IMG/VR virus record: IMGVR_UViG_3300036770_004060
Location: 1-64,000 of that record
Direction: 5' to 3' (one strand)
Source of the DNA: a virus
DNA length: 64,000 bases
In this document: positions 14,707-59,915 of the stretch, piece after piece
How positions within the stretch are numbered: the first letter of the stretch is position 1
Layout: every line of letters begins with the position of its first letter
Notes under the pieces: generated by a model
Databases searched by the model: none
What the model was told of the DNA's origin: nothing
Seen by the model: only the letters and a program-made list of their open reading frames with translations
Translations under genes and position numbers: made by a program

Positions 14707-14736
14707 AATATATTCTTTTTTACAAATTTAAACATT

Positions 14737-20024: not shown

Positions 20025-20743
20025 TACTGTTGTTCTTGTTGGTTACTATTTTGAGTTTGTTGTGCGTACTGCTTTGGTTGTTTTACTTCTGTACTATCCG
20101 CTCCATCGTTTGCTCTTTCATCAGGAATAAGCATTACATACCTACCTAACTTTAAAACCTCCTGAATAAGTTCTCCTACTCTTTCATCGGGTATCGGTAA
20201 TTCATCATCTAATGAACAAATATTTCTAGGGTCTAAAGAAGAACGAACCGCTATCTCAACATCTTTTACTTCTACGCATTCAATACCTAATAAATAAATC
20301 CTGTTTACGGATACATTGTTTACCTTGTCGGCTACTCTTCTAAAGTAAGGGTTTTTAGCACTAGGGGTAGTATATTCATCTAGGTATAGGTGTTGTACTT
20401 CCATCGTATTTACTGGCTGGAAGAATGTCTGAGCAAAACTATCACCATGACAGGATAATGTGTCAATATTGTATGTTATATATGCGATACCCTCATTATT
20501 TGGTAAATCCATTATTTGAGTAGGCAGGTCAATATATTTTCTTGATTTATCGTCTTTTTGTACAGTAACAGGATAGAACGTAGAGGTAAATAAATCTGAT
20601 TTAGTAACCGCATATTGTTGTAAACGTATTCTATTAGCAACTACCTGTACCCAGTAGATTATCTGGATTAAGGTAATATCGGCATCATCAAAGGTTTTCT
20701 TTAGTGATTTCTGTAAGTCGTATGCAACAAATCTGTATGTCAT
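20024..20743 (-). CDS. Head-tail connector/ring protein, 239 aa
   Basis: First gene of the tail operon, directly downstream of a late promoter at 20806-20840. The N-terminus (RFVAYDLQKSLKKTFDDADI) is helical, the middle beta-rich, and the last 30 residues are Gln-rich and probably disordered. Connector proteins with this layout precede tail tubular proteins in Bacteroidota podoviruses. No enzyme motif is visible. Confidence 0.5.
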   Translation of the reverse strand: MTYRFVAYDLQKSLKKTFDDADITLIQIIYWVQVVANRIRLQQYAVTKSDLFTSTFYPVTVQKDDKSRKYIDLPTQIMDLPNNEGIAYITYNIDTLSCHGDSFAQTFFQPVNTMEVQHLYLDEYTTPSAKNPYFRRVADKVNNVSVNRIYLLGIECVEVKDVEIAVRSSLDPRNICSLDDELPIPDERVGELIQEVLKLGRYVMLIPDERANDGADSTEVKQPKQYAQQTQNSNQQEQQ

Positions 20744-20805: not shown

Positions 20806-20840
20806 CAAAGATAATTATTTTAATAATTCGTTTTTTTTGA
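20806..20840 (-). promoter_or_regulatory. Late promoter of the tail operon
   Basis: On the minus strand, an A-tract ending in ACG is followed after exactly 15 bp by TATCTTTG (plus coordinates 20806-20813). The same layout and spacing occur at 30009 and 34265. The first codon downstream is at 20743, giving a leader of about 60 nt that contains ATTAGT-type repeats. Confidence 0.7.
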
Positions 20841-20858
20841 ATATTAATTGTATATTTG
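20836..20858 (+). promoter_or_regulatory. Promoter of small RNA 1
   Basis: TATATTTG (20851-20858) is a perfect TAnnTTTG box. A TTTG lies at 20836-20839, closer than the usual 19 bp, so the -33 element is uncertain. It is back-to-back with the late promoter on the other strand. Confidence 0.55.
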
Positions 20859-20862
20859 TGCT

Positions 20863-20948
20863 GTGTAATTTGTTTTAATTCATAATTTTAGTTTTTTCAT
20901 TTTTGTTTCAGGAAAAGAGTAGAGAAGAAATTTTTTACTCTTTTTTTG
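20863..20948 (+). ncRNA. Candidate small RNA 1 (about 85 nt)
   Basis: A transcript starting just after 20858 would run through a U-rich, non-coding stretch to a strong intrinsic terminator at 20913-20947. No ORF with a start codon fits inside it. First of three consecutive promoter-terminator units. Confidence 0.5.
20913..20947 (+). terminator. Intrinsic terminator of small RNA 1
   Basis: AAAAGAGTA pairs with TACTCTTTT. The stem continues inward with A-U and G-U pairs to a GAAA tetraloop (20927-20930), and T residues run on to 20947. Confidence 0.75.
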
Positions 20949-20984
20949 TTGTATTAATAATTATTTTAATACCTTTGGTATTAG
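20949..20984 (+). promoter_or_regulatory. Promoter of small RNA 2 with overlapping dyad
   Basis: TTG (20949-20951), 18 bp, then TACCTTTG (20970-20977). The -7 box and presumed start lie inside the perfect inverted repeat TAATACC-TTT-GGTATTA (20968-20984), so a dimeric repressor could cover the start site. Confidence 0.6.
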
Positions 20985-21077
20985 ATTTTTGTACTCTCAT
21001 TCAAAGATTTATAGTTTAGTGATGTAAAAAGACTGGATAACTAGGAAAGTGAGGTTTGTAAAGACTTCACTTTTTTT
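20982..21077 (+). ncRNA. Candidate small RNA 2 (about 95 nt)
   Basis: Runs from the TACCTTTG promoter to an intrinsic terminator at 21046-21077. No plausible reading frame is present. It lies between small RNAs 1 and 3 on the same strand. Confidence 0.5.
21046..21077 (+). terminator. Intrinsic terminator of small RNA 2
   Basis: AAAGTGAGG (21046-21054) pairs with CTTCACTTT (21065-21073), 9 pairs including one G-U, with a 10-nt loop and a run of seven T. Confidence 0.8.
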
Positions 21078-21088
21078 ATTTAAAATAA

Positions 21089-21119
21089 TTTGTTTATTAG
21101 AAAATAATTATTACTTTTG
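21089..21119 (+). promoter_or_regulatory. Promoter of small RNA 3 / leader of the HTH gene
   Basis: TTTG (21089-21092), 19 bp, TACTTTTG (21112-21119): an exact Bacteroidota promoter. Its spacer contains TATTAGAAAAT, shared with the promoters near 22205, 34313 and 51949. Confidence 0.8.
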
Positions 21120-21123
21120 TTTC

Positions 21124-21221
21124 ACACCCACACTGCAATAAAAAAAGACTTTATTATACCGTAATGGTATATAAATTAAGCTCTAAGAAGTTCTGTGGTG
21201 GGGGTGCTTAGGGCTTTTTTT
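21124..21221 (+). ncRNA. Candidate small RNA 3 or attenuator leader
   Basis: The transcript would hold a hairpin formed by TTTATTATACC and GGTATATAAA (21150-21175, with one bulge) and then a terminator at 21178-21221 that ends one base before the ATG at 21222. The 5' end (CACCCACA) is complementary to parts of the terminator loop (TGTGG and GGGTG), so a pseudoknot or antiterminator is possible. It may be a stand-alone RNA or a regulated leader. Confidence 0.55.
21178..21221 (+). terminator. Terminator/attenuator before the HTH gene
   Basis: AAGCTCTAAG (21178-21187) pairs with CTTAGGGCTT (21207-21216), 10 pairs with one G-U, a 19-nt loop, followed by T to 21221. The next base begins the ATG of the downstream gene. 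Confidence 0.8.
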
Positions 21222-22004
21222 ATGCATAGTAACGAGATTAAAATATTAGCATTTGTAGTAGCTTTCAAGAGATATAGGAAGAACTCTGTCATCTTTAAAG
21301 AGGCTAAATATAAGATAGCTCAACGATTTAATCTCCATCCTACAACATTCAATAACTATCTTTCATTAGCAATTAAACTAGGTTATATTCAAGAGAATAA
21401 TGCCTATAAAGTAATTCCATTCAGAGATATTGTTAAAGACTTTAAGTACAAAACAGACTTAATCTTTTGGAAACATAAAATACTTCAATCAAAAGAAATA
21501 AGTTTTAAAAGAATATTAATAGAAATAGAAAACATAATAACATTCGATAATGTAATAAGAAGACAACAATTCAGAATAAAACAAAAAGGTAAAAGAATTG
21601 AAGCTATTAACTACCTAAAGCAAACAGATAAAAAGTCATGTCCTAAACTTTCATATAAGTACCTAAAAGATATTATGAAAAAAGGATTAAATTGTGTTGC
21701 TAACAACGAGTTAATAGAGAAATATTCTCCTACCATAAGAACATCAGCTAGGAACGTATCTAAACATACTTCTTTTAGTGTATCTAAATCAAACAAAATA
21801 TTAAACCGTTCAACTAATCTTTATAAGAGAGAGATTGTTTCTAAATGGTTTATTGGTGTTTCTTTTTTTAAACTAGAAGAATTAAAAGTAAAGTATCCTA
21901 AAGCTACTATTATTCCTTTCACTAAACATAATAAGATTAAAGTCTGTGATGGTAGTATGATTAGTGTTCTTAATTCATCTGATATAGGTATGGGAGTAAA
22001 ATGA
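21222..22004 (+). CDS. Two-HTH DNA-binding protein, 260 aa
   Basis: ATG at 21222 is preferred over a GTG at 21195, which lies inside the terminator loop. Residues about 20-70 form a winged-helix pattern (YKIAQRFNLHPTTFNNYLSLAIKLGYI). A second HTH follows near residues 175-205 (SARNVSKHTSFSVSKSNKIL), resembling lambda-type or plasmid initiator helices. The protein is very basic. It could be a transcription regulator or a replication initiator. The attenuator immediately upstream suggests its expression is controlled at the RNA level. Confidence 0.6.
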   Translation: MHSNEIKILAFVVAFKRYRKNSVIFKEAKYKIAQRFNLHPTTFNNYLSLAIKLGYIQENNAYKVIPFRDIVKDFKYKTDLIFWKHKILQSKEISFKRILIEIENIITFDNVIRRQQFRIKQKGKRIEAINYLKQTDKKSCPKLSYKYLKDIMKKGLNCVANNELIEKYSPTIRTSARNVSKHTSFSVSKSNKILNRSTNLYKREIVSKWFIGVSFFKLEELKVKYPKATIIPFTKHNKIKVCDGSMISVLNSSDIGMGVK

Positions 22005-22039
22005 CTTAAGTTTGTATTTAAAATGAGAATTTGCAAATC

Positions 22040-22198
22040 ATGAGTAGATTAACACAAGCAATAGCATTTCTTAACGTAGATAGTAAGAAGCTAAACGATA
22101 ACTGGATTTCACAAAATCTCACCAGTATTACTTTAACCAAAGAATTAAAAATCTTAAGAAAAAAAACAATAAAAAACAAAAATAAAAGTACAGATTAA
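22040..22198 (+). CDS. Small basic protein, 52 aa
   Basis: ATG at 22040, 35 bp after the HTH gene. The C-terminal 20 residues are almost all Lys/Asn/Arg. It has no recognised family and ends just before the next promoter. Confidence 0.5.
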   Translation: MSRLTQAIAFLNVDSKKLNDNWISQNLTSITLTKELKILRKKTIKNKNKSTD

Positions 22199-22200
22199 TG

Positions 22201-22230
22201 TTTGCTATTAGAAAATTATTAGTATACTTG
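22201..22230 (+). promoter_or_regulatory. Plus-strand promoter with conserved spacer
   Basis: TTTG (22201-22204), 18 bp, TATACTTG (22223-22230). The spacer contains TATTAGAAAATTATTA, also found near 34313 and 51949. The ATG at 22235 is about one base from the expected start, so the mRNA is probably leaderless. Confidence 0.7.
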
Positions 22231-22234
22231 TAGT

Positions 22235-22450
22235 ATGAAAGAAATTAAAAAAGTAAAGATTAAACTAAGTCCTTACGATGTTATACTTATAAGTTCTTTT
22301 TTTGATGTGTATATTGATAACGAAAAAAACAATGTAGTACTAATTAATTCTATTAATAGATTCCAAAAGCAAGTAAAAAATAAACTAACAGACGAACAGT
22401 TAGACTTTGTTCAGTTTGAAATTGATTTGAATAAACTAATAAATAAGTAA
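22235..22450 (+). CDS. Hypothetical protein, 71 aa
   Basis: First gene of a five-gene run. Short alpha/beta protein, Lys/Asn-rich, no family recognised. The stop codon directly abuts the ATG of the next gene. Confidence 0.6.
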   Translation: MKEIKKVKIKLSPYDVILISSFFDVYIDNEKNNVVLINSINRFQKQVKNKLTDEQLDFVQFEIDLNKLINK

Positions 22451-22867
22451 ATGGAGTTAAAAAAATACATAGAAAGACAAAATACTTTAAAAGGTATAGC
22501 AAATAGTTATACTTATAGATTTTTTAAAGACGGTAAAATTCAATTCCCAACTCTTCTCGGATTAAATAAAGAATACCATAATTTATTGAATGGTGAAAAA
22601 AACGAATATTTTACAAATGAAGAACATATATTTGTATGGGAAGAAATAGTAAGATTATTGGATTTAAAAACTGGAATAGTAGGTTCAATTTTTTCAGATG
22701 AAAACAATAAAATTAATACGAGTGAGAGAATAGTAACTACAATACGAACAAATTCTACTGGAAAAAGACAAGAGTGTAGTTTGTTTTCTTACGGAAAGAC
22801 TAATGAATACTTATTTGCAGATTTAGAATTAAGATACGATTTTATTGATGTTAAATTAGATATATGA
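22451..22867 (+). CDS. Hypothetical protein, 138 aa
   Basis: Starts immediately after the preceding stop and overlaps the HisRS-like gene by 4 bp (ATGA), so it is probably translated together with both. Soluble, mixed charge, no recognised motif. Confidence 0.6.
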   Translation: MELKKYIERQNTLKGIANSYTYRFFKDGKIQFPTLLGLNKEYHNLLNGEKNEYFTNEEHIFVWEEIVRLLDLKTGIVGSIFSDENNKINTSERIVTTIRTNSTGKRQECSLFSYGKTNEYLFADLELRYDFIDVKLDI

Positions 22868-23505
22868 AAGAGATAAAACTTAAAAAAACTTATAAGGGAA
22901 CTAGAATACTAATAGGCAACAAAAAGAGAGAGTTACTTAATAAAATGATAGACGTTCTTTATTTTTATGGTTTTGAGGAAATAGAAATTCCTATTATACA
23001 ACTTAAAGAAACTTTTGAGAATAAAGTTGGAAAAGAAAACAACAATCTAATGTTTAACTTTAAAGATAATGGTAACAGGGATATTGTTTTATCTCCTGAA
23101 TATACTAGTGTTATTCAACAATTGTCTAAAGAAACATACAAACAAGAAAAAAACGTTAAACTTTTTTATATTCAAGAATGTTTCAGAGGTGAGAAACCAC
23201 AAAAAGGAAGATACAGACAGTTTACCCAACTTGGAGTAGAAATAATAAACCCCAATGATAGTATAAACAATAACACACTTGTTCAAATAGTAATAGAACT
23301 ACTATCCACTTTACATGATATTAGTTTTGATTCGTTTAAGGTTAACTACGAGGTTAAGAGAGGGCTTGACTACTATAATGACGGAAAAGGATTTGAAGTT
23401 TTGTGTGAAGAACTAGGGTCTAGTAAACAAGTATGTGGTGGTGGGTTTTATAATGGAGGATGTGGATTCTCTCTAGGGATTGATAGGTTAATGTTAATTA
23501 AGTGA
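22864..23505 (+). CDS. Minimal histidyl-tRNA-synthetase-like protein, 213 aa
   Basis: A compact class II aminoacyl-tRNA synthetase catalytic core of the HisRS/HisZ type. Visible signatures: KGTRILIG near the N-terminus, a motif-1 region (YGFEEIEIPII, 35-45), motif 2 (FRGEKPQKGRYRQFTQLGVE, 107-126), the histidine-site signature RGLDYYN (166-172), GGGFY (192-196) and motif 3 (GFSLGIDRLML, 201-211). Bacterial HisRS is roughly twice this length; the C-terminal anticodon-binding domain and insertion domain are absent here. It could aminoacylate or bind a tRNA-like substrate, act as an adenylating enzyme, or serve regulation as HisZ does. It sits in an overlapping gene run, which argues that it is functional. 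Confidence 0.8.
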   Translation: MKEIKLKKTYKGTRILIGNKKRELLNKMIDVLYFYGFEEIEIPIIQLKETFENKVGKENNNLMFNFKDNGNRDIVLSPEYTSVIQQLSKETYKQEKNVKLFYIQECFRGEKPQKGRYRQFTQLGVEIINPNDSINNNTLVQIVIELLSTLHDISFDSFKVNYEVKRGLDYYNDGKGFEVLCEELGSSKQVCGGGFYNGGCGFSLGIDRLMLIK

Positions 23506-23508
23506 AAT

Positions 23509-23820
23509 ATGAAAAAAACAATTAATATAGTTGAAGTTCAAAGGCAGACAGGAAATACTTATTGGTTATTAAAGTCTGCAATTAGTGAACCAAAATGTAT
23601 TCTAATATTTAAAAATAGAAGTATAGCCATCGATAATGAAAAAGTATTTATTAATATGGGAGGTGAATTATTTAACGACTTTCCTAAGTTCGTAGGTCTT
23701 GAAGAATATCGTCCTACACGGAAGTATAAAGCACCAATTATGTTTGATAATAGTTGCTTCTCATCTAGTGATGGTGTTTTGTTTAAGACATCTGTAACTA
23801 ATCAAGTATATAACATTTAA
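23509..23820 (+). CDS. Hypothetical protein, 103 aa
   Basis: Begins 3 bp after the HisRS-like gene. The N-terminus (VEVQRQTGNTYWLL) is reminiscent of phage proteins with a P-loop-like TGNT turn, but no full Walker motif is present. Function unknown. Confidence 0.6.
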   Translation: MKKTINIVEVQRQTGNTYWLLKSAISEPKCILIFKNRSIAIDNEKVFINMGGELFNDFPKFVGLEEYRPTRKYKAPIMFDNSCFSSSDGVLFKTSVTNQVYNI

Positions 23821-23851
23821 AATTATAAAAATCAAATAAATAATAAGTAAT

Positions 23852-24187
23852 ATGGAAGCACAAGGACAAGGTAAAATAATTAAAATTTTAGATACTATGG
23901 TTATATCTGATAAATTTAGTAAAAGAGAAGTAGTGATAAGAGTACCAGACCAAAACCCACAATATAGTGATGAGCTTATATTTGAGTTAATACAGGATAA
24001 ATGCACCTATTTGGATAACTTTAAAGTTGGAGATGATGTTATGTTTAAATTTAATATTAAAGGTAAAATTCATAAAGATAAATGGTATAATTCATTAAGA
24101 ATATGGAATATATCTAAAGTTGGTGGTAATCAACCTAAAGTTATTAGTCCATCGTCAGAATTTGATGGGTTTGATGAACCATATTAA
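23852..24187 (+). CDS. DUF3127 OB-fold protein (SSB-like)
   Basis: The pattern G.GKIIKILDT..ISDKFSKREVVI, then a KVGDDVMFKFNIKGK segment and a YNSLRIWNISKV end matches DUF3127, a small OB-fold family common in Bacteroidota and their phages. The acidic tail ending FDGFDEPY resembles the protein-recruiting tails of SSBs. It probably binds single-stranded DNA. A second, canonical SSB is encoded at 57787. Confidence 0.75.
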   Translation: MEAQGQGKIIKILDTMVISDKFSKREVVIRVPDQNPQYSDELIFELIQDKCTYLDNFKVGDDVMFKFNIKGKIHKDKWYNSLRIWNISKVGGNQPKVISPSSEFDGFDEPY

Positions 24188-24203
24188 CTATAAAAACTAA
24201 AAA

Positions 24204-24431
24204 ATGGATAATAAATTGTATGATGAAAGATTCACTTTGCGTGATGATGATGTTTTTAGAGGCTTGATACCTCAAGTTAATAAAATTAGCGACAGAGAGA
24301 TAAATGAACTTATTCAAAGGTTTAGGGAAATAGTACCACACGATAAAAGGACGGATGAGGAGTTAAGACCATTTGCTGTAAACACTATATTGGGAGGCAG
24401 GTACCACCAAGGAACTGACCAAATAAACTAG
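24204..24431 (+). CDS. Hypothetical protein, 75 aa
   Basis: Acidic/basic helical protein with no recognised family. It is 16 bp after the DUF3127 gene and 5 bp before the next gene, so part of the same transcription unit. Confidence 0.55.
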   Translation: MDNKLYDERFTLRDDDVFRGLIPQVNKISDREINELIQRFREIVPHDKRTDEELRPFAVNTILGGRYHQGTDQIN

Positions 24432-24436
24432 ATAAT

Positions 24437-24892
24437 ATGGAAAATAACGAAGTAAAAATAACAATTGAGGAGTACAACAAATATCAAGAACTTAAATTAC
24501 TATGTTCGTCATACCGAAGATTTGTAGAACAAGTAAAAGAACAAGATGGTGTTATTCTTATTGATTATAGAAAACTAAAAACAATGAAAAACAATATTCA
24601 CCAAGAATCGATTCTATATTTAGACTATATCCCACCAAGTGTTGTTATAAATTCAGATAGTGAAATTAAAGAATATTTAAAACAAGAAATTGAAACACTT
24701 GATAATATGTATTCAAATATAATGGAGTTAATGAATAAAAACGAAAAAAACATAACCAATTCGTCTAGTGGACTAAGTGAATTGTATCTAAAACGATTAA
24801 ATAAGACATATAAAGAAAAGTGTATTTTAGAATCAGATATTCATAGACTAAGAATTGAGAATGATATGTTAAAAGCAAAATACGAAAGTTAA
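24437..24892 (+). CDS. Coiled-coil protein, 151 aa
   Basis: Long Glu/Lys/Leu helices with heptad-like spacing, especially residues 75-150. No signal peptide. Family unknown. Confidence 0.55.
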   Translation: MENNEVKITIEEYNKYQELKLLCSSYRRFVEQVKEQDGVILIDYRKLKTMKNNIHQESILYLDYIPPSVVINSDSEIKEYLKQEIETLDNMYSNIMELMNKNEKNITNSSSGLSELYLKRLNKTYKEKCILESDIHRLRIENDMLKAKYES

Positions 24893-24905
24893 AACACTTG
24901 GATTT

Positions 24906-25448
24906 ATGAAAAAAGTAGAACAAGTTAATAGACCTCTTAAACTAGGAGAAAAATACTTAGTTCCGTGTCTTGTTAGTTACCATTTTCACGAAGAAAATAT
25001 TGATGAAGAAACTTTGTGGCTAGATTTAGAACCTTATACATTAAATAGTGTATATAAAAATACAATTTCAATTACGCCAATAATAAATCATCCACATTCA
25101 GACATAGAAAACGGACAAAAAGAAATTCACTACCACAAAGACACTAGATTTATAGATAAAAGAAAACCAAATTATAAATCATTATATCAGTTTTCTCAAC
25201 TACCAAGAGGAGAAGTTGGCAAACACGGAAGAATAGAGTACCTTGAACTTCCAGTTGTTAGTGAGTTATTTGATGAAATAACACCAGTAGAATTAATTAA
25301 AAACAGCAAATTGAAACACAAATGTATTCATAATGGTAAATGTCCTCATCGTGGTTTTAAGATGAATCAGGTTAGTCCTATAGACGGAATACTTACTTGT
25401 CCTTTACATGGGCTCAAATTTAACTATAAAACTAAACAGATGATATGA
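24906..25448 (+). CDS. Protein with C-terminal Rieske-type [2Fe-2S] motif
   Basis: The last 40 residues contain C146-x-H148-x16-C165-x2-H168 (CPHRGF and CPLHGL), the two-Cys/two-His ligand set of Rieske clusters, with the HGLKFN...T turn that follows the second ligand pair in Rieske ferredoxins. Residues 1-135 match no family I know and contain several His residues. Overlaps the next gene by 4 bp. No oxygenase or ferredoxin-reductase gene is in the window, so any redox partner would be from the host. Confidence 0.7.
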   Translation: MKKVEQVNRPLKLGEKYLVPCLVSYHFHEENIDEETLWLDLEPYTLNSVYKNTISITPIINHPHSDIENGQKEIHYHKDTRFIDKRKPNYKSLYQFSQLPRGEVGKHGRIEYLELPVVSELFDEITPVELIKNSKLKHKCIHNGKCPHRGFKMNQVSPIDGILTCPLHGLKFNYKTKQMI

Positions 25449-25972
25449 AAGATAATTATAACAACAACGAGTTAACGTACATAGCAGAAAGATTAACCCC
25501 ATCAGTATTCACAACTATGGAATTACTTGAAAAAGATGGAATTGATTTTATAGACCTACTTCTTTCATTCTCAATGATTGATTCTGATAAGTTAATCTCT
25601 TTTCATATAGAATCTTCTGAAATATTTAGATTAAGTTTAACTACTTATGAAAAAATATTAGACTCAATAGGAAGCAGAACGTTTGATTATTTTTACTACA
25701 AGGATGTTGTAACCAACAAGGAAAAAATAAAAGGGATAATAGAAAATATTGATTTAAGAATTAATGAAACTCAATCAACGCTGTCTCAATTTAAAAATGC
25801 AGACTTAGATAGATTAAATAGATTATGTTCTGTTTTTTCAGAATCGTTAAAAATTCATGCAGATACCGATAAGGAATCCCATGAAAAATTTTTAAAAAAA
25901 GTAAACGAATGTGTCGATATTATTATCTTTCAGCATAAAATAATTTCAAAACTCTCGCGCTATATTAATTAG
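25445..25972 (+). CDS. Hypothetical protein, 175 aa
   Basis: Helical, acidic protein, last gene of the plus-strand accessory block. ATGA overlap with the Rieske gene. It converges with a virion gene, the two stops overlapping by 4 bp, with no terminator between. Confidence 0.55.
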   Translation: MKDNYNNNELTYIAERLTPSVFTTMELLEKDGIDFIDLLLSFSMIDSDKLISFHIESSEIFRLSLTTYEKILDSIGSRTFDYFYYKDVVTNKEKIKGIIENIDLRINETQSTLSQFKNADLDRLNRLCSVFSESLKIHADTDKESHEKFLKKVNECVDIIIFQHKIISKLSRYIN

Positions 25973-26715
25973 ATAACACTCAATAGTTGACTAATGTCAT
26001 TGCTTGATATACTGAAAATATTTGTTCCATCTCCCTGTTTCATCGACATATAAAACAAAGCCTTATCAAACAACAATTGAAAACAACTGGACGGAAATTC
26101 TATCTGTCCAGTTGTTATATTTGTTATATTAACAGGTTTCTTAGCCCAAAAGACAGTAGCTAAAGTAGGAGCTGGTCTTATCTCTATCTCTAAAGAATGA
26201 ACACCAGTATTCGTATTCCTATAATTAATAGGGTTCAAATAAGCATACGTTTTTAGTCCACTACACAATTGGTCTCCATCATATCCTTGCTCTAAAGGGT
26301 TATCCTTTACTCTAGCCCATTCCTCTACACCCTTTCTTATACAGTCCTTATTCGCTGACACATGAACTAAATCACTCCTAAAGTAACTTTGTGTTGTAAG
26401 CGTTACTGGAGCTGCTGAAATACTTCTTGTAGTAGGATTAGGATAAACAGCTAAGATAGTCCATACCTCGCTAGGAAAAACACTTAACGAAATACGAGAA
26501 TTATCATCAGGCTGAAACACACCAGAGTAAGATATTTCACGAAAGAACTCCTCACCAATCTTGTTTTCACCAAAAGCAGAACCAACAACAGCAGTAAGCC
26601 ATTTTATAGAAGCATTGATAGCTGGCATATAGTCTAAATCATCTCTATAATGGTCGCTATTCTCTGCATCTAAAGCAAAAGCTAATTGTTTTCTAAGTTC
26701 TAGTGATGAAATCAT
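25969..26715 (-). CDS. Head-tail adaptor protein, 248 aa
   Basis: Follows the 260-aa head protein by 5 bp. The N-terminal helical region (LRKQLAFALDAENSDHYRDD, then NASIKWL) resembles phage connector proteins, and the rest is beta-rich. Likely one of the rings between portal and tail. Inferred from order: MCP, unknown, adaptor, then tail operon. Confidence 0.5.
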   Translation of the reverse strand: MISSLELRKQLAFALDAENSDHYRDDLDYMPAINASIKWLTAVVGSAFGENKIGEEFFREISYSGVFQPDDNSRISLSVFPSEVWTILAVYPNPTTRSISAAPVTLTTQSYFRSDLVHVSANKDCIRKGVEEWARVKDNPLEQGYDGDQLCSGLKTYAYLNPINYRNTNTGVHSLEIEIRPAPTLATVFWAKKPVNITNITTGQIEFPSSCFQLLFDKALFYMSMKQGDGTNIFSISSNDISQLLSVI

Positions 26716-26720
26716 TTCAG

Positions 26721-27503
26721 TTACGAATTAATAATACTTTCTTGAATTAATCTATCTCGTTCGTCCGCTTTAGACAAATGACCATACAGTTTTTCTTTTG
26801 CACCTTTAATTGATTTAGTGGCAAGTGTTTCAGTAAGTCGTTGTCTCATAATTTTAACATCTGACAAAAGAGTTAATCCTTCTTGTTGACTTCTTACTAT
26901 AACCTGTTGGTCGCTAAGAGATTCTACTAAATTATTACATTCAGACAATTTCATAGCCATAGAATAATCCACATTTGCGGCTTTCTCTAATGTTTCATGG
27001 AAAGCAATACCATATTTAGAATGATTACGTAAATATTCTATCTCTCTCTTTGAATTTGACACATACATTGATACAGAAACAACATCTGAACCTCTTTTTC
27101 CTGAAACATTTCTTTTAGTTCTAAGAAGCGGTTTAAACAATATTACACCATTATTCGGATTTGGAATATATGTTCCATTACGCTTATCCCCCCAAAGAGA
27201 TGTTTTATACGTATATGTAAAAAACGAAACCCCCTCATCTACCCAATCATCAGCTAAATCCTCTAGATAACTTTCATTGCTAGATTCTTTGGTTTTTCTT
27301 AAAGAATTTTCAAGTTTCTCGTTTTTTTCTAAAACAGATTTAAAAGATTTCTTTAATTCCTCAAATTCTTTTCTGAAATTTTCTAAGCTATCCGATTCCT
27401 TTACCTGAACATTTGCTTTCTCATTGCTTGAATCAAAAGATTTGTTTTCTTCCTGAATCTTTTGAAATAAGTCTTTACTTTCTGCTACTCTTTTTATTGG
27501 CAT
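26721..27503 (-). CDS. Head-associated protein, 260 aa
   Basis: Immediately downstream of the capsid gene but separated from it by an intrinsic terminator. Residues 1-75 form a charged coiled coil, 85-150 are beta-rich (SFFTYTYKTSLWG), and the C-terminus is helical. Similar proteins follow the capsid gene in Bacteroidota podoviruses; exact role unknown. Confidence 0.5.
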   Translation of the reverse strand: MPIKRVAESKDLFQKIQEENKSFDSSNEKANVQVKESDSLENFRKEFEELKKSFKSVLEKNEKLENSLRKTKESSNESYLEDLADDWVDEGVSFFTYTYKTSLWGDKRNGTYIPNPNNGVILFKPLLRTKRNVSGKRGSDVVSVSMYVSNSKREIEYLRNHSKYGIAFHETLEKAANVDYSMAMKLSECNNLVESLSDQQVIVRSQQEGLTLLSDVKIMRQRLTETLATKSIKGAKEKLYGHLSKADERDRLIQESIINS

Positions 27504-27516
27504 TTTATTTAAGTTT

Positions 27517-27543
27517 AAAAAGGAGGGGATTTATTTCCCCTCC
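27517..27543 (-). terminator. Terminator after the major capsid gene
   Basis: On the minus strand GGAGGGGA pairs with TCCCCTCC (8 GC-rich pairs, 6-nt loop) and is followed by TTTTT. Located between the capsid gene stop and the next virion gene, it would reduce read-through and raise the ratio of capsid to downstream proteins. Confidence 0.85.
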
Positions 27544-27555
27544 AATAGGTTATTA

Positions 27556-28794
27556 CTAAACTGTTTCTACGTAAGCATTTGCTAGTGGGTTGTTTATTTT
27601 AAACCCAATATTACAATCTACATAGAAATCTTTATATCTTTTTGGTGTTCCATCAGAATCAAGGTCAGGAGTTGAACCTGAACGTTCTCCCCACATTTGA
27701 CAAGGAGTGATGTTGTCCATATCAACAATTATGATACGATTTTGGAAAGCCTCCCCAAAAGAAGATTCTTTAAATCGAGAATAAGACACAGGAACTATTA
27801 TAGAAGAACCTAAGTTTATTTGTTGAAGATTTAACAACGAGAATGTATCATTAGGAGCATATTGTGTCAATTCTCCTTTGTAAGCTAAACTAAGTTGTCT
27901 ATGCTTTTCAGGTGTCATAAACGCAAAACGAACCTTACCAAATTTCCCGTATTCAGATTGAAATACTACATCCTCAAATGCCGATACCAAGTTAGCATTA
28001 GATACTCCTATCGCATTAGGAGAGCCAGATTCAATCATAGAAGTAAATAATCCTTTTGTTGTTTTTGCAGGCTTCCCTTTTGAAGTAGGAACCTCTCCCT
28101 GAATACCCATCCACAAAGCATTTGAAATATCAATACGATGCTGGTTAAACAATTCTTCCATCTCCATAGAGATAAAGTTATCTGTTGTACCAGTTTTACG
28201 TAATTTATTTAATTCTACCTCATCATATCTAATTGCTCTGTTAAACAACTGAACATACATACTTCTTTCGATGATATTTGAACGTTGGTGTACAGCAAAT
28301 CCCTCTGAACCAGCATGGTCAACAGATGAGTGATTCCCAAAAATATCATTCGCTGAAACAGCAGGTAGTGAACTATTATTGAAAGGAGCAACTGTAATTG
28401 TTCCAGCGGATGAATCAACATCAACAATATTACCTTTTTGACCATTTGGATATGTTATCAATACGTCTGTATGTACTGTATTAATTGAAGCAACAGTAAA
28501 TGTTTGTGTTGTTGGCGCATTGACAGCAGCTGCTGCTCCAGTTGCAATAATTGCTTCTCTTTGCCATCCCATCTCTTGATAGAAGTGTTCATCTGAATTA
28601 ACAGTTTCATACTTCAATCTATTAAGTAAGTGCAAATCCATAAACTGATACGGTCTACCATCAAAGAGTCTCCTGTTTACTTCTTTTTGGATTTTTAAAT
28701 CAAAGTTATGACCATACGTTGCCGCATACTCAGAACCTACTGGGTTCATGTTTTTGTTGGAAAAATTATCCGAACTTAAATCTACTAAAGACAT
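27556..28794 (-). CDS. Major capsid protein (HK97 fold)
   Basis: 412 aa directly after an acidic scaffold gene and before adaptor genes. The internal pattern (FNRAIRYDEVELNKL, MEELFNQHRIDISNALWMG, FAFMTPEKHRQLSL, then a C-terminal DFYVDCNIGFKINNP) fits HK97-type capsid proteins of Bacteroidota podoviruses. A strong terminator follows it. The call rests on gene order, size and pattern. Confidence 0.8.
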   Translation of the reverse strand: MSLVDLSSDNFSNKNMNPVGSEYAATYGHNFDLKIQKEVNRRLFDGRPYQFMDLHLLNRLKYETVNSDEHFYQEMGWQREAIIATGAAAAVNAPTTQTFTVASINTVHTDVLITYPNGQKGNIVDVDSSAGTITVAPFNNSSLPAVSANDIFGNHSSVDHAGSEGFAVHQRSNIIERSMYVQLFNRAIRYDEVELNKLRKTGTTDNFISMEMEELFNQHRIDISNALWMGIQGEVPTSKGKPAKTTKGLFTSMIESGSPNAIGVSNANLVSAFEDVVFQSEYGKFGKVRFAFMTPEKHRQLSLAYKGELTQYAPNDTFSLLNLQQINLGSSIIVPVSYSRFKESSFGEAFQNRIIIVDMDNITPCQMWGERSGSTPDLDSDGTPKRYKDFYVDCNIGFKINNPLANAYVETV

Positions 28795-28811
28795 TTTTTT
28801 TTATTTATTAA

Positions 28812-29990
28812 TTAATAACCAAAGACGCTTTTCTTTTCAGGGATAAAGAGATGGCTAATTGATTTTAAATCCTCATCAACCTTATTAAGGTTACTGTTTT
28901 GATTTTTTGTCTTTATTTTTTTATCAGACAAATCAACTATTTCCTCCCTAGCCTTACTTTCGCCGCGCCGTTCTGCGATTTTTTTAGCGTTCTCCAACAT
29001 CTTTTTACCATACATAGCAAAAGCAATTTTTTCCGCCACATCAGGTTTATATGTTCCGTCTGATTCAAAAAGCAAATTATCGGCTTCACCACCAACCAAG
29101 ATATTCTGAATCTTTGTAAGTTCAGTTTTACTGAAGTTTGGGTATTCTTCGCTGAAACGATTAACGGAATCTATTGCAGAGGTTTTAACTTGTTGGATTT
29201 TTTCCTTTCTCGTTTCCTCAAATTTAGACACGCTATCATTAAACGATTTTTTGTCTTTGTCAAACAGCTTCTTTGTTGTTGAAGCTAAAAGTTTTACACT
29301 TCTATCAAATTCAGCATCAGATATGTCGCCATTTTCTAGCTTATCTTTTTCTTCACTGTATTCTTTAGAGAAATAATGCTGTACAAGTCCCTCGATGTTT
29401 TGTTTTTCAAAATCTTGTGAAAAGTCCAGTCTTTGTTGAAAAGCAGTAGTATAATCTTCCCCCGAATCATATAGGAAGTTTGCTCTAGCTAAATCGGGAG
29501 GCATAGAATTAAAGTAATTCTGTATCTGCTCTAAAGATTGCTTTGCCTTAACACCCTCCTCTGCCTGTTTTCTAAAAGTGTCAACAGAGTTAAAGAATGT
29601 AGGCATATCTTTAATGCTATATTTCTTACTAATTAAATCTAAGAGTTCTTTTGGAGGCTCAAAATTTAACTTAATTTCTTTCTTGGGTTTCTTTGTTTTT
29701 AGAACACCAAAAATGTCATCTACATCTTCAATGGATTCATCTTCGGTTTCTTCATCCTCTAAATCCCCCTCTTCTAAATCATTTTGATTTTTTACCTCTT
29801 CATCTGAATTAGTAATAGGCTCTTTAGGTGTTTCTTCAAACTCTTGTTTTCCGACATTTTTTCTATCAGCTTTTATCGCCTCTAAAAAAGCCTTTGTGTC
29901 GTTTTCAGTTTGAACCATTGGGTTGTCTGTCGGGTACTCCGATAGTATGGACAACATCTCAATTTTGGAATCAATATTTTCTTCTGCCAT
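28812..29990 (-). CDS. Capsid scaffold protein
   Basis: The start is set at ATG 29990 (MAEENIDSK), because a longer TTG start at 30011 would lie inside the promoter. About 392 aa, very rich in Glu, Asp and Lys, with a nearly pure acidic stretch at about residues 75-95 and coiled-coil helices after it. This composition and its position just before the capsid gene are typical of scaffolds. No protease motif was seen. Confidence 0.7.
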   Translation of the reverse strand: MAEENIDSKIEMLSILSEYPTDNPMVQTENDTKAFLEAIKADRKNVGKQEFEETPKEPITNSDEEVKNQNDLEEGDLEDEETEDESIEDVDDIFGVLKTKKPKKEIKLNFEPPKELLDLISKKYSIKDMPTFFNSVDTFRKQAEEGVKAKQSLEQIQNYFNSMPPDLARANFLYDSGEDYTTAFQQRLDFSQDFEKQNIEGLVQHYFSKEYSEEKDKLENGDISDAEFDRSVKLLASTTKKLFDKDKKSFNDSVSKFEETRKEKIQQVKTSAIDSVNRFSEEYPNFSKTELTKIQNILVGGEADNLLFESDGTYKPDVAEKIAFAMYGKKMLENAKKIAERRGESKAREEIVDLSDKKIKTKNQNSNLNKVDEDLKSISHLFIPEKKSVFGY

Positions 29991-30008
29991 AGTTAATATA
30001 TTTATTGT

Positions 30009-30044
30009 CAAAATTAAATAAAAAACTATTACGTTTTTTTAGAG
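30009..30044 (-). promoter_or_regulatory. Late promoter of the scaffold-capsid operon
   Basis: Minus strand: CTCTAAAAAAACG, 15 bp, TAATTTTG (plus coordinates 30009-30016). Identical architecture to the promoters at 20806 and 34265. The CTCTAAAAAAACG block is shared letter for letter with 34288-34300. Confidence 0.75.
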
Positions 30045-30094
30045 TTTTAATTCAACTAAAATATGATAACTATAAGAAAAATAACTTAATAGAA

Positions 30095-32302
30095 TTAAAT
30101 AGATTGATTATTCTTTAATAGGTCTCTTTGAGTTTTAGAGTTTTCCATAAACTCTGTCTTTTCCATGTCAAGTTCATGGCTTAATAACTTATCATCAACC
30201 TGTGCTTGTCTTTGAGTATTAGCTTCATCAACCATCATCTGTTGTTGTTCTGCTTGTGCCTGTTGCATCTGCGGAACTCTTTGAGCATTTATCTTATCCA
30301 TCTCATACTGCGCCTGTAGTTTCTCTCTTTGGTATTCCCTTAAAGATTGTGCTATAAGTGTTGAATCAGACCTGTCAAACAGATTAGCAAAACGTGTTTG
30401 GTCTAAAAGACCCGCTTGAAGAAGTGTAAATAATAACTGATTCCCAGCCTGTATTCCTTGCTCTTTAGTTTCAGAACGCTTGATTGTTATTCTATAATCT
30501 TGGAGTAAATGTTCTTTAGTCAGATTAATTCTTTTATGCCCCTCATCTCCAACCATAATGGTTAGTTGCCTAGGATTATCTACATAAATAGCTTTTCCTG
30601 TTGTTGCAATATGGTTATATGCTTGGCTTAGTACTGATGTTAATTTAGCGTAAAATGGTTCTTGAATAAGTGAGCCTCTTTGTATTTGTGCTTCCACAAC
30701 ACCAACAAGTACGTCTGCTCCTCCTTGCGTTCCTGTCATTGCCTCATTAACCCCTGTAACATCTTGAATACTTTGTTGCACTTCTTTTATTACCTGAAAC
30801 ATTTGAAGTGTTCCCGAAATATTTGTTCCGTATTCTCCAATCGAGTTTTGAACAGAGCCGGTTCTTGAGGTATCAACAAATACAGGTTTTGAGGAGTTCA
30901 TGTTTCGTACAATATCTTCTTCACCATCTATTGCTGCATCCTTAGATATGATTGCTCCTGTTCCACGCATACTAGACATTCTCGATTCAATAGCAGAAAG
31001 TGTTCTGTTTAAGAACCTTTGAGGGTCAATAGCATCATCAAGTGGTGTAAGTATTTCTCCTCTTTCATAATCCCAAGCCTCAACCTTATAAGGGAAATAT
31101 GTTTCAGATGGTTTTCTAAGGTTTTTTTCTTGAAAAGGTAATATCCCCCATTCAAGGAGTATGTCTTCTTCAACATTTCCTACTTCTTCTTGCGGAATAA
31201 TTATGGCATATCTAGTAAGCCCATCATAAACAACTTCCTTTTTTTTATCACCTAGCCTTAACTTGGCTTTTTCTGTAGGTGGCTCTATAAGGTCTTTATC
31301 GGTATATGAATTTTTTTCTCCCGTATTTATATATGTATAGTAAGGATAACCGAACTCATCCATTACATAACCTGCTTCCTTTTTTTCGGTATCTTTCCAA
31401 TAAACCTCATATACTGGAACTTTACCTGATGTCTGAACAAGAATATCATGTATAAACTCATGCATATTCTGATTTGACTGGTCTGATGAATATTTTTCTA
31501 TTGCATCTCTTTCTAGTTTTGTTAAGTGTGGGTATTTCTCAAATATAGATGGAGCATCCATGTAGTACCACTCAAACATATATTCTGCATCTGAAAAATC
31601 CGATTCTGTTGCCGATAAATCCCATCCATAAAAGAAAGGTGATTTTACTTCACCAACATAGTTTCCATTAAATTCATATCCTTTGTATATAGCCAAACCG
31701 TATAAGGCAAGATTCCTAGCTAAGTTATGTTTAATTTTTTCGTTTAGTTTTATCTCCGTTGAGACATAATCAATCATGTTATTTATATCCTTAACATAAT
31801 CTTCAACAAATGAATTGTCAAATATTTCTTTTGTCTCAAATTCGGTATCACCTAAAGGAATTTGTTCTTTTATAATATCTTTAAAGTATGGAGAAGCTTT
31901 TGAAACTACCTCAAAGGCTTGTATTCTTTTTAGTTCCTGCTCTCTTTTATTTATAACGAAAGGGGATATACATTCTGCTTGTGCGTTATAGGAAAGTCTA
32001 ACAGCGTTTCCCTTATACTGTTGAACCATTGGTTTAAGAACATTTTTTGTCCATTTAAGTCTGTTTCTGATGTCTCCTGATTCATCTAGGAAGAAAGAAA
32101 CGGTATCATCATCAAGAATCCATTGTCCATCTCCACCACTATAGAAAGAGTAATTTATAAGGCATTTTTGTATGTATCTTCTATACGAACTATTGTTTAG
32201 TGTTTGAAGACAATACCTAGCCATGTCGGAATGATATTTTTTGTTTTTCCTTTCGATTAACCTATTAGGTCTAGTTGAATTATTATAAAAAATACCTTTC
32301 AT
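30095..32302 (-). CDS. Portal protein
   Basis: 735 aa between terminase and scaffold genes. The N-terminal part contains a GGDGQWILDDD segment and LKWTKNVLKPMVQQYKG, and the central part a TGVNEAMTGTQGGADVLVG segment, the conserved portal stretch preceding the long wing/stem helices. The C-terminal 100 residues are a Gln/Glu/Lys coiled coil (barrel region). It forms the dodecameric DNA channel at the capsid vertex. 2 bp separate it from the upstream gene. Confidence 0.8.
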   Translation of the reverse strand: MKGIFYNNSTRPNRLIERKNKKYHSDMARYCLQTLNNSSYRRYIQKCLINYSFYSGGDGQWILDDDTVSFFLDESGDIRNRLKWTKNVLKPMVQQYKGNAVRLSYNAQAECISPFVINKREQELKRIQAFEVVSKASPYFKDIIKEQIPLGDTEFETKEIFDNSFVEDYVKDINNMIDYVSTEIKLNEKIKHNLARNLALYGLAIYKGYEFNGNYVGEVKSPFFYGWDLSATESDFSDAEYMFEWYYMDAPSIFEKYPHLTKLERDAIEKYSSDQSNQNMHEFIHDILVQTSGKVPVYEVYWKDTEKKEAGYVMDEFGYPYYTYINTGEKNSYTDKDLIEPPTEKAKLRLGDKKKEVVYDGLTRYAIIIPQEEVGNVEEDILLEWGILPFQEKNLRKPSETYFPYKVEAWDYERGEILTPLDDAIDPQRFLNRTLSAIESRMSSMRGTGAIISKDAAIDGEEDIVRNMNSSKPVFVDTSRTGSVQNSIGEYGTNISGTLQMFQVIKEVQQSIQDVTGVNEAMTGTQGGADVLVGVVEAQIQRGSLIQEPFYAKLTSVLSQAYNHIATTGKAIYVDNPRQLTIMVGDEGHKRINLTKEHLLQDYRITIKRSETKEQGIQAGNQLLFTLLQAGLLDQTRFANLFDRSDSTLIAQSLREYQREKLQAQYEMDKINAQRVPQMQQAQAEQQQMMVDEANTQRQAQVDDKLLSHELDMEKTEFMENSKTQRDLLKNNQSI

Positions 32303-32304
32303 TT

Positions 32305-32871
32305 TTAATATGCTGTTATTCCATCATTAATACTAACCAATACTCTTTTCTTGGTATTTCTTTCGTATATTTTTACGCCGTTACCATCCTCAATTCTTTT
32401 AACCATCTCGGGTATTTTCTCCTCTATTCCCTTGAGTAAGTCGGAATGTTTTTTAAGTTCATCAGATGACATCTCCATAATATCTTCTCTTGAGCGCATT
32501 CCGATAATATAATTTAGTTCATCAAAAATATAATGTTGTATTAGTGTAGCACGAAGCCTAAGTTCAACATTAAACTTTTTCATGGTATTTATTCCAGCTT
32601 GTATATGGTCAGGAATATTCCCATTCAAATACTCTTTTAGTTCTTGTTTTTTTAAATAATTAGGAAAACAAGATTTTAGAGCAGTCTCTATCTTTTCATG
32701 GTCTTTTTTTTCAAATAATGGAGATGTTCTATTCCCTACAAGCCAGCAAAACTTCACTTCTCTTGGATGTAAGTTTTTAAAAACTTCATGATTAGCAAGT
32801 TCTGGGAACTCTATTTTTAGGTCTTGGCTTGTGTCTATACCAAATAATACTACATCTAATTCTTTTGCCAT
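32305..32871 (-). CDS. Hypothetical late protein upstream of portal, 188 aa
   Basis: A mostly helical protein 2 bp before the portal gene. It contains FKNLHPREVKFCWLVGNRTSP and a Met/Glu-rich C-terminal half. Genes in this position are often small virion or packaging accessory proteins. It could be a small terminase, but no HTH is evident. Confidence 0.5.
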   Translation of the reverse strand: MAKELDVVLFGIDTSQDLKIEFPELANHEVFKNLHPREVKFCWLVGNRTSPLFEKKDHEKIETALKSCFPNYLKKQELKEYLNGNIPDHIQAGINTMKKFNVELRLRATLIQHYIFDELNYIIGMRSREDIMEMSSDELKKHSDLLKGIEEKIPEMVKRIEDGNGVKIYERNTKKRVLVSINDGITAY

Positions 32872-32883
32872 AAAAGATAAATT

Positions 32884-32921
32884 AATTAGCTAACCAGCAT
32901 ATCTACCGATTAGCTAATTAG
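32884..32921. other. Paired AGCTAA palindromes between late genes
   Basis: The 54-bp gap between the 421-aa and 188-aa genes holds two copies of the palindrome TTAGCTAA about 26 bp apart, able to form a long imperfect hairpin. There is no U-tract, so its role as terminator or processing site is uncertain. Confidence 0.35.
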
Positions 32922-32925
32922 GTTA

Positions 32926-34191
32926 TTAAGACATTTTAGTCCATTTAAGAACTACTTTTCCATTAGCTACAAGGTTTCCTGTAACACTTGCGTTCCATCC
33001 GTCAGCTGCGTTAAGATGTACTGTTTTAGCTGATGCTGCCTCGTTGATAGAAATCCCAGTCAATGCTCCAGCTGTAGCAACACTTGTTTTAACAGTTGCT
33101 GTTCCTGCCGAATTTGCAGCTGTTTGACCAGTAATGTAATCTTCAAAAGTAGCTGTACCTCCAAGAACTGCTACCGCTCCTGTTCCAATTACAGAACCTA
33201 CACCAACGTCAGGTGTATCTGTAGTTACACCTCCAGTCGTAAGTCCAACAGACATATAAGTAGCTGTATGTACATGAGATCCAGCAGGAAATGTATATAT
33301 TAATGCTCCATGAGCTGAGTTACCTCCCGCTGTTGGTGCGCCAAGAACTACACTATCAAGGTTAATAACAGTAGTAATATCTCTACCATCTCCATATTCG
33401 ACAACAGAACAATTAGTTCCTGCTGTTCCGAGTAAAGATTTATTAATAGCACCATCAATTAGAGCAACTGATGCAGCAAAATCTGTAGCTGTTTCTTCAA
33501 TAAAGATTATTGCACTTTCGTGTTTAACGGCATTTTGACCGCTAAGTACGTTCATTTTAATATCTTTACGATAGTTTATGATATACTTAGTGTAAGTTCC
33601 TGCATCATCAACAGATGCAACTGGTATGTAAAGTTTTGCTTCTGTAGGGCTTCCGCTTGGAGCAGTATATGGAGTTCCTACAGTTATAGTTGCTCCTGAT
33701 GGAACTGTAAGAACAGTATCACCTGAATTAACATCTGTCATAGTTATAGATATACTATCAGTAGATACAGCTGCTGCTACTATTCCAGATTCAGCATCAT
33801 TTTGAATTGATTCAAGAATTGCATCACGAACTTGTTGAACTGTTGGAGAGGCTCCAACTCTACCTACATAACTTCTACTTTTTATAAGAGCATTTGTTTC
33901 TACTCCGCCACCAAAGAAAGATTGTCTGTATGGAAGTTCTATTACCACTAAATAACTACCATTGTCTGTAAGGGTAATTAATGAAAAGTCTATTGTTTTA
34001 ATAGACAATACTCCTGCACTATACGCAGTTTTTGAAGACGACAAAATATCACTCGTTTTAAGCGACAATGCCGTGTTTGCTGAATCATCCTTTATTGACA
34101 GAACACCGCCAACAAAAGAAACATCAGAAGCTTGTATGTCGTTTGCGATAACCGCAACTCCATACTCTCCTTTCGGAAGTTTTGTAAACAT
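32926..34191 (-). CDS. Virion structural protein (decoration or head fibre)
   Basis: 421 aa, dominated by Ala, Gly, Thr, Ser and Val with no Cys-rich or enzymatic motif except a single Cys. The second half (SHVHTATYMSVGLTTGG, TGAVAVLGGTATFEDY) is low-complexity beta, as in phage fibre or decoration proteins. It is the first gene after a late promoter and lies between terminase and portal, so a head decoration role is likely. Base composition is more GC-rich than its neighbours. Confidence 0.55.
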   Translation of the reverse strand: MFTKLPKGEYGVAVIANDIQASDVSFVGGVLSIKDDSANTALSLKTSDILSSSKTAYSAGVLSIKTIDFSLITLTDNGSYLVVIELPYRQSFFGGGVETNALIKSRSYVGRVGASPTVQQVRDAILESIQNDAESGIVAAAVSTDSISITMTDVNSGDTVLTVPSGATITVGTPYTAPSGSPTEAKLYIPVASVDDAGTYTKYIINYRKDIKMNVLSGQNAVKHESAIIFIEETATDFAASVALIDGAINKSLLGTAGTNCSVVEYGDGRDITTVINLDSVVLGAPTAGGNSAHGALIYTFPAGSHVHTATYMSVGLTTGGVTTDTPDVGVGSVIGTGAVAVLGGTATFEDYITGQTAANSAGTATVKTSVATAGALTGISINEAASAKTVHLNAADGWNASVTGNLVANGKVVLKWTKMS

Positions 34192-34212
34192 AATAAATAA
34201 AATTATACACCG

Positions 34213-34256
34213 ATAAAAATCCGTGTGAATTAATAATAATTAACTACACCGTGTAG
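34213..34256. promoter_or_regulatory. Operator-like dyads between late gene and Xre regulator
   Basis: A perfect dyad, ACTACAC-C-GTGTAGT (34242-34256), and an imperfect one, ACAC.GAT-AAAA-ATC.GTGT (34214-34233), lie just downstream of the late promoter start. They share ACAC/GTGT arms, as expected for one dimeric regulator, perhaps the adjacent Xre protein. Confidence 0.5.
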
Positions 34257-34264
34257 TACTTTTG

Positions 34265-34300
34265 CAAATTTAACATAAAATCATATTCGTTTTTTTAGAG
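34265..34300 (-). promoter_or_regulatory. Late promoter of the 421-aa virion gene
   Basis: Minus strand: CTCTAAAAAAACG, 15 bp, TAAATTTG (34265-34272 in plus coordinates). Third member of the late promoter set. Confidence 0.75.
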
Positions 34301-34312
34301 TTTTTAACTTCG

Positions 34313-34338
34313 CTATTAGAAAATTATTAGTATATTTG
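34313..34338 (+). promoter_or_regulatory. Promoter of the Xre gene
   Basis: TATTAGAAAATTATTA spacer followed by TATATTTG (34331-34338). The bases before the spacer are TTCG, not TTTG. The ATG at 34355 leaves a leader of about 13 nt. It is divergent from the late promoter at 34265. Confidence 0.65.
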
Positions 34339-34354
34339 CATTTAACATTTTTTT

Positions 34355-34657
34355 ATGACTTTATCTGAATTTTTTCTTAACGAAAGGCTAGAGCGTGGAT
34401 TATCTCTAAGGAGAGCTTCTGATGGTATTGGTATATCTGTATCTTATTTGTGTTCAATAGAGAATGGGAAGAAGAACCCTACTCAAAAGACGATTGATTT
34501 GTTGTGTAAGTTTTATGATAAGGATTTATGGCATATCTTATTTTTAATTTGGTCTTTAGATGATTCTGTTGATGAAAAACTAAAAAAACAAACTCTTTTA
34601 AAATTAAAGGAGCTTTTAGAATTTCAACTAGAATTTACTTTTTCTAAAGTTGTTTAA
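34355..34657 (+). CDS. Xre-family transcriptional regulator, 100 aa
   Basis: Residues 4-60 form a Cro/CI-type HTH: LSEFFLNERLERGLSLRRAS, then SVSYLCSIENGKKNPTQKTI. A short helical C-terminus could dimerise. Antisense to, and divergent from, late genes, and expressed from a promoter of the conserved-spacer class, so it may switch between early and late transcription. Ends by overlapping the convergent 110-aa gene by 14 bp. Confidence 0.8.
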   Translation: MTLSEFFLNERLERGLSLRRASDGIGISVSYLCSIENGKKNPTQKTIDLLCKFYDKDLWHILFLIWSLDDSVDEKLKKQTLLKLKELLEFQLEFTFSKVV

Positions 34658-34976
34658 ATACGAACACCTTACCATATTTGTTTGATCGTTCTTGTGTATA
34701 GTTTTCGATTGATTCTTTAAAAAACATAAGTTCTCTTTCATTTAGGTTTCTATTTCTAAGTGTTGGATAGTAGCTTTCGTTATACCAAGTTAGTGGTAAA
34801 TCTACTTGTTGTTTTCTATCAATAAAAACTTGATATTTTTCTATACGGAAGTCGCTTATATTTTCTACATATTCAAAATACTTTATAACAAAGTGTTTTA
34901 TGTTGTTTTCAATAAGATATTTTAATACTATTTTTTTCTTCATATCTAAGATTTTAACATACATCAAATTCTTCAA
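34644..34976 (-). CDS. Hypothetical protein, 110 aa
   Basis: Basic, Tyr- and Asn-rich protein, no recognised family. It overlaps the upstream winged-helix gene by 23 bp and the convergent Xre gene by 14 bp. Confidence 0.5.
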   Translation of the reverse strand: MKNLMYVKILDMKKKIVLKYLIENNIKHFVIKYFEYVENISDFRIEKYQVFIDRKQQVDLPLTWYNESYYPTLRNRNLNERELMFFKESIENYTQERSNKYGKVFVFKQL

Positions 34977-44598: not shown

Positions 44599-46045
<1,447 letters not shown>

Positions 46046-59864: not shown

Positions 59865-59907
59865 TTGTTGATATTCAATCCCTGAAAAAACTAATTAAAA
59901 AAATAGT

Positions 59908-59915
59908 TAAATTTG
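59908..59915 (+). promoter_or_regulatory. -7 box before a small plus-strand virion-type gene
   Basis: TAAATTTG, 14 bp before the ATG at 59929; no clear -33 element. Confidence 0.45.

Follow-up and report, generated by a model that had tools for sequence, protein, structure and literature searches.

In the middle promoters of phage T4, a MotA box centred at -30 replaces the -35 element and lies 12 +/- 1 bp from a -10 element that is kept (PMC2988021). The promoters described here are similar in that a host element of the -10 type is kept and one of the -35 type is replaced at near-fixed spacing. They differ in the class of host sigma factor, in their place upstream of structural genes, in their spacing (15 bp, counted from where A7CG ends) and in the box itself, which is TGCTT in T4 and here is a run of A residues (A6 to A10, then C, G or T) that does not match the MotA consensus. 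No homologue of MotA or AsiA was identified by Pfam among the proteins scanned, a set that covers part of the small ORFs.

The housekeeping promoter of the Bacteroidota combines a -33 element (TTTG) with a -7 box (TAnnTTTG), and the -7 box is identical to that of the phage promoters. In F. johnsoniae, the T of the -7 box sits at -12, and the weak -33 motif stands out less than the AT-rich motifs found at -18 and -28 (PMC6847099). Given the T at -12, the A-run of the phage promoters would fall at about -30 to -36, which is the -33 position. Bacterial UP elements resemble the A-run in that they are A/T-rich, lie upstream and could act via the shape of the minor groove, but they are found at -40 to -60 (PMC2988021). 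The late genes of cultured crAss-like phages are thought to use the host polymerase (PMC8375218). In the open-access literature searched, no phage-specific class of promoter was found to have been described for Bacteroidota phages.

The phage and its late region

The stretch of DNA analysed, referred to as the window, is 64,000 nucleotides long and corresponds to bases 1-64000 of a viral record of 67,768 bases (67.8 kb); the full record was joined from the window and contig L004. The record is AT-rich and A-runs are plentiful. The minus strand carries a structural block with a P22-like portal gene (30095-32302), an SU10-type major capsid gene (27556-28794) and genes for a ring-2-like, a 255-aa and a muzzle-like protein (14737-20743), for which the Pfam crAss ring and muzzle models score just below cut-off. 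The terminase large subunit gene (35548-37656, minus strand) has relatives in 27 contigs at about 64-74% identity, and gives only weak tblastn matches to annotated terminases of GenBank phages, phi14:2 among them. A search with the portal gave no match in bacterial genomes or GenBank phages, nor did a search of viral contigs with the capsid. The structural genes and their neighbours are kept in relatives and, taken together with the terminase matches, point to membership in a crAss-related group of phages of about 60-73 kb that has no cultured representative in the collection searched. The phage is probably podovirus-like and related to the crAss phages.

The host phylum is very probably Bacteroidota, since the promoters are of the Bacteroidota type and the 80 best matches of the RtcB protein in bacterial genomes come almost entirely from that phylum, as judged by record title. 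The gene for this RtcB-type RNA ligase (44663-46045, plus strand), whose product reaches 74% identity with proteins of Bacteroidota, has no counterpart in the ten complete relatives compared. At 1965-10784 on the minus strand lies a gene for a protein of 2939 aa with no Pfam match, whose first ~1250 residues are about 50% identical to sequence of the closest complete relative (G001), and which other relatives match only partially. The late region is interrupted by a block on the opposite strand (21195-25972, plus strand), whose genes include one for a histidyl-tRNA-synthetase-like protein and one for a Rieske-domain protein; G001 too carries a block of opposite orientation here, but most of its genes are different.

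The A-run promoter sites

The first-pass annotation had described three minus-strand sites in which an A-tract ending in ACG lies 15 bp from TAnnTTTG, and all three are exact. By direct reading and pattern search, AAAAAAACG-N15-TAnnTTTG occurs at exactly three places in the record, 20806-20837, 30009-30040 and 34265-34296, all on the minus strand. Each site precedes a structural operon, in line with the late operons of the earlier description, the ATG following 26-81 nt downstream. Putative late promoter 1 (20806-20840) has an A8 run (20831-20838), CG, 15 nt and TATCTTTG, and the ATG of the ring-protein operon follows after 70 nt, at 20743. Late promoter 2 (30009-30044) reads CTCT, A7, CG, 15 nt and TAATTTTG, with an ATG 26 nt downstream at 29990, in the gene upstream of the capsid gene. 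Late promoter 3 (34265-34300) reads CTCT, A7, CG, 15 nt and TAAATTTG, with an ATG 81 nt downstream at 34191. Promoters 2 and 3 share the identical stretch CTCTAAAAAAACG, in agreement with the earlier claim. The designation "late" is drawn from the genes downstream, namely those for the P22-like portal, the SU10-type capsid and the crAss-like ring and muzzle proteins, so late expression is presumed, as is use of the sites as promoters.

Two further sites stand in the same register with runs that are not followed by CG. A fourth, on the plus strand at 59885-59915 (59908), has A6, CT, 15 nt and TAAATTTG, with an ATG 21 nt downstream at 59929; a fifth, outside the window at record position 67089 on the minus strand, has A8, GA, 15 nt and TAAATTTG, and lies upstream of a core gene for a 240-aa protein. 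The run stops exactly 17 nt short of the -7 box at all five promoters and TAnnTTTG is present, so the host box is retained at every site, as had been proposed. The predicted loss of the host -33 element is likewise borne out, since TTG at 17-22 nt is found in none of the seven late-strand promoters of the record. The A-run box is missing from some late-strand promoters, at 14730 (internal), 38905 and 39269 on the minus strand. The -7 box at 14730 lies at the 3' end of the muzzle-like gene, as a putative internal late promoter without an A-run; it has counterparts in many relatives, in which TTG or an A-run is mostly absent. At three places, 34265-34338, 20806-20858 and record positions 67082-67153, an A-run promoter and a promoter of the opposite strand stand back to back.

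From genomes simulated with Markov models of orders 2 and 4 to match the composition of the whole record, A7CG-N15 before a -7 box is expected 0.0024 times per record, against three observed. The word A7CG occurs seven times in the record, and three of its four minus-strand copies are the three sites. When AAAAACG was scanned at a range of spacings in the window plus 26 related loci, seven matches fell at spacing 15 while the adjacent spacings had none; four of the seven were contributed by near-identical contigs of one clade. An exact scan with A5CG over 34 related records, at spacings 8-22, found spacing 15 in one clade at one orthologous site only, and two further matches at other spacings. 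The exact pattern CTCTA7CG had no match in viral contigs. When every run of A6 or longer upstream of every -7 box was counted, at distances up to 45, five of ten such runs in the record end at exactly 17 nt and the other five elsewhere (Poisson P 5e-7). In L008, a contig of the relative L005, four of ten runs end at 17 nt and six elsewhere (Poisson P 4e-7); one of the L008 runs falls within the last part of the coding sequence of the gene upstream. The spacing of 17 nt had been set beforehand on the basis of the window, so L008 serves as an independent test.

The leader RNA of promoter 3 was also examined. At 34190-34264 on the minus strand, a predicted leader of two hairpins starts directly after the -7 box, as would be expected if transcription starts there. 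The loop of the first hairpin is mostly ACNGU. The leader is kept in about 57 distinct relatives, and in the RNAalifold analysis 9 of 12 pairs are changed on both sides with pairing kept. Within the genomes searched it occurs at the orthologous position only and is absent from crAss001 and phi14:2; Rfam gave no match for it, or anywhere in the window.

Relatives, early-class promoters and host chromosomes

The box and its spacing are conserved at orthologous late promoters. In L005, with which the window and G001 form one clade, site 2 reads A9CA-N15-TAATTTTG and site 3 reads A9TG-N15-TACATTTG; the run ends at 17 nt in all four such sites of L005/L008. In L013, L027, L031 and L033, site 3 reads A6-7CG-N15-TATATTTG, and the L013/L027 clade has the run end at 17 nt at this one site. 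G001 has all three orthologous promoters, each with a run of A6 to A9 followed by C, but its spacing shifts by 1 nt either way: promoter 1 (26875) has A6 ending at 18 nt, promoter 2 (33129) has A7CA-N15 with the end at 17 nt, and promoter 3 (36866) has A9 ending at 16 nt. In total, six runs of A6 or longer end at 16-18 nt in G001. Across relatives the runs extend from A6 to A10 and the next base is C, G or T, and a universal ACG ending is therefore rejected. Since the run-end counts in the record, L008 and G001 agree while the flanks vary, what stays invariant in these phages is the position at which the A-run ends on its 3' side, 17 nt from the -7 box (16-18 nt in G001), and CG is a lineage-specific detail. 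Of the earlier description, the run and its distance hold, in the three exact sites and in L005, G001 and L013/L027, but neither the ACG ending nor a spacing of always 15 bp is general. In most of the other relatives, TTG is lacking and no clear A-run is present.

The two strands were compared over 11 phage genomes, with strand as a proxy for late expression, so that the contrast is if anything diluted. TTG at 17-22 nt upstream is found at 6 of 97 late-strand promoters and 27 of 50 on the opposite strand (Fisher P 1e-10), and an A5 run at 16-20 nt at 22 of 97 and 1 of 50, respectively (P 6e-4). As far as can be read from the DNA, late promoters are without the host -33 element throughout the group, as the TTG counts indicate, and the A-run substitutes for it in the window's clade. 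An early-class promoter, TTAGAAAATTATTAG-TATATTTG, stands back to back with late promoter 3 (34316-34338, plus strand), with further copies at 21097, 22208 and 51952 and at record position 67131, all on the plus strand. Early promoters are devoid of the A-run box. This early-class family shows a direct repeat, TATTAG-AAAAT-TATTAG, with a period of 11 bp and ending at the TATATTTG box; this element had no exact match in the related loci searched.

The box is also absent from host chromosomes as a class, as the claim of a phage-specific motif would predict. In 148 Bacteroidota genomes there is no excess at N15 (about 19 matches, of about 125 at N13-N17) and matches are no commoner than those of reversed-pattern controls, by which a subtype of host promoter is rejected. 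Spacing 15 is not favoured in seven flavobacteria, nor in 61 genomes searched with the strict pattern, which gave one match. Of 92 intergenic host -7 boxes, 24 have TTG at 17-22 nt and 4 have an A5 run at 16-20 nt, whereas the phage late class has the A-run in place of TTTG. The cultured phages crAss001 and phi14:2 have tail and head genes that appear related to those of the window phage, yet TTG is retained at about 19-20 nt in their late-strand promoters, which have no A5 run at 17-20 nt. In crAss001, TTG peaks at 20 nt on the late strand with no A-run there, and phi14:2 is similar; the sole A5 run at 16 nt in the two phages, at phi14:2 position 53598, lies inside a coding region. A general late promoter of crAss-like phages is rejected on these grounds.

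Candidate factors and readings of the A-run

The best candidates for a regulator are circumstantial. The foremost is an XRE-type HTH gene (34355-34657, plus strand; PF01381, E 2.7e-11), which diverges from late promoter 3 and is preceded by its own early-class promoter. G001 and L005 alone carry orthologues, which occupy the same position and are always divergent from promoter 3, and the three phages with the gene are those with the strict A-run class. This co-occurrence may reflect shared descent, given that the three form one clade; on the short contigs of the L013 clade, site 3 reads A6-7CG and the XRE gene finds no match. The next candidate is a RepL-like winged-helix DNA-binding protein (34954-35463, minus strand), the gene for which is core (10 of 10 complete relatives). 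Its RepL match is weak, and its predicted model (mean pLDDT 78) resembles winged helices of the MarR/ArsR type and RepL-like proteins of crAss-like phages; it may be a regulator or a replication initiator. No polymerase or sigma-factor domain was found by Pfam in the proteins scanned, and no giant virion RNA polymerase gene was recognised.

There is little doubt that the A-run promoter class is real and phage-specific. A phage-modified polymerase or an activator that reads the box, as suggested by the first-pass annotation, is plausible because the spacing is fixed and the -33 element is replaced; the chances that a phage factor reads the A-run box at late promoters with kept -7 and replaced -33 elements are put at about even. 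In the proposed mechanism, the host RNA polymerase would recognise the ordinary -7 box, and the A-run box would fill the place of the missing -33 element. A phage DNA-binding protein made earlier in infection would engage the A-run box and replace the contact of sigma region 4 with the -33 element, and the host polymerase would thereby be moved to the structural operons. Such promoters would work like the T4 middle promoters, given the same geometry, in which one host element is kept and the other replaced at a set distance. It is tentatively proposed, as a possibility that falls short of probable, that a lineage of Bacteroidota phages independently evolved a switch of this kind, with the XRE or RepL-like protein displacing sigma region 4 and reading the A-run.

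The main rival is that no phage factor is involved and the host polymerase reads the A-run directly. A rigid run with a narrow minor groove would be read by host sigma region 4 or by the alpha C-terminal domain, standing in for a weak -33 element, and timing would come from replication or template number. The weak -33 motif and the more pronounced AT-rich motifs of F. johnsoniae (PMC6847099) favour direct reading, as does the tolerance of runs of varied length and flank; but few host intergenic -7 boxes have an A5 run (4/92, against 24/92 with TTG), early promoters of the same phages retain TTG, and the run lies nearer than UP elements do (PMC2988021), which leaves direct reading possible if somewhat doubtful. 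The A-run box might instead be an operator, at which a phage repressor (such as the XRE protein) or a nucleoid protein holds the late genes off until late infection. The XRE gene adjoins promoter 3, diverges from it and occurs only in phages with the A-run class, as an operator might suggest, but nothing requires a repressor site to keep a fixed distance from the -7 box or to take over the place of the -33 element, and the host -33 element, which would still be expected, is missing from late promoters family-wide; an operator is considered unlikely. A polymerase or sigma factor that is encoded by the phage and reads the whole motif as a promoter of its own is brought to mind by the virion polymerase of crAss-like phages (PMC8375218) and by the crAss-like ring and muzzle proteins found here. 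It is nevertheless very improbable, given that the proteins scanned gave no polymerase or sigma match and that the -7 box is exactly that of the host, although the 2939-aa protein could conceivably be a very divergent polymerase. A chance pattern, which an AT-rich record with many A-runs might produce, is refuted by the counts (3 vs 0.0024; L008 P 4e-7), given replication in L008 at a preset spacing and the run kept at orthologous sites, and its probability is negligible.

The replaced -33 element, together with the kept -7 box, suggests that the phage redirects the host RNA polymerase to its late genes. With the motif, orthologous sites in several genomes, the contrast with early promoters and named candidates now in hand, the late-gene switch of crAss-related phages without a recognisable polymerase becomes testable, and A-run promoters could serve as phage-dependent switches in Bacteroidota bacteria.
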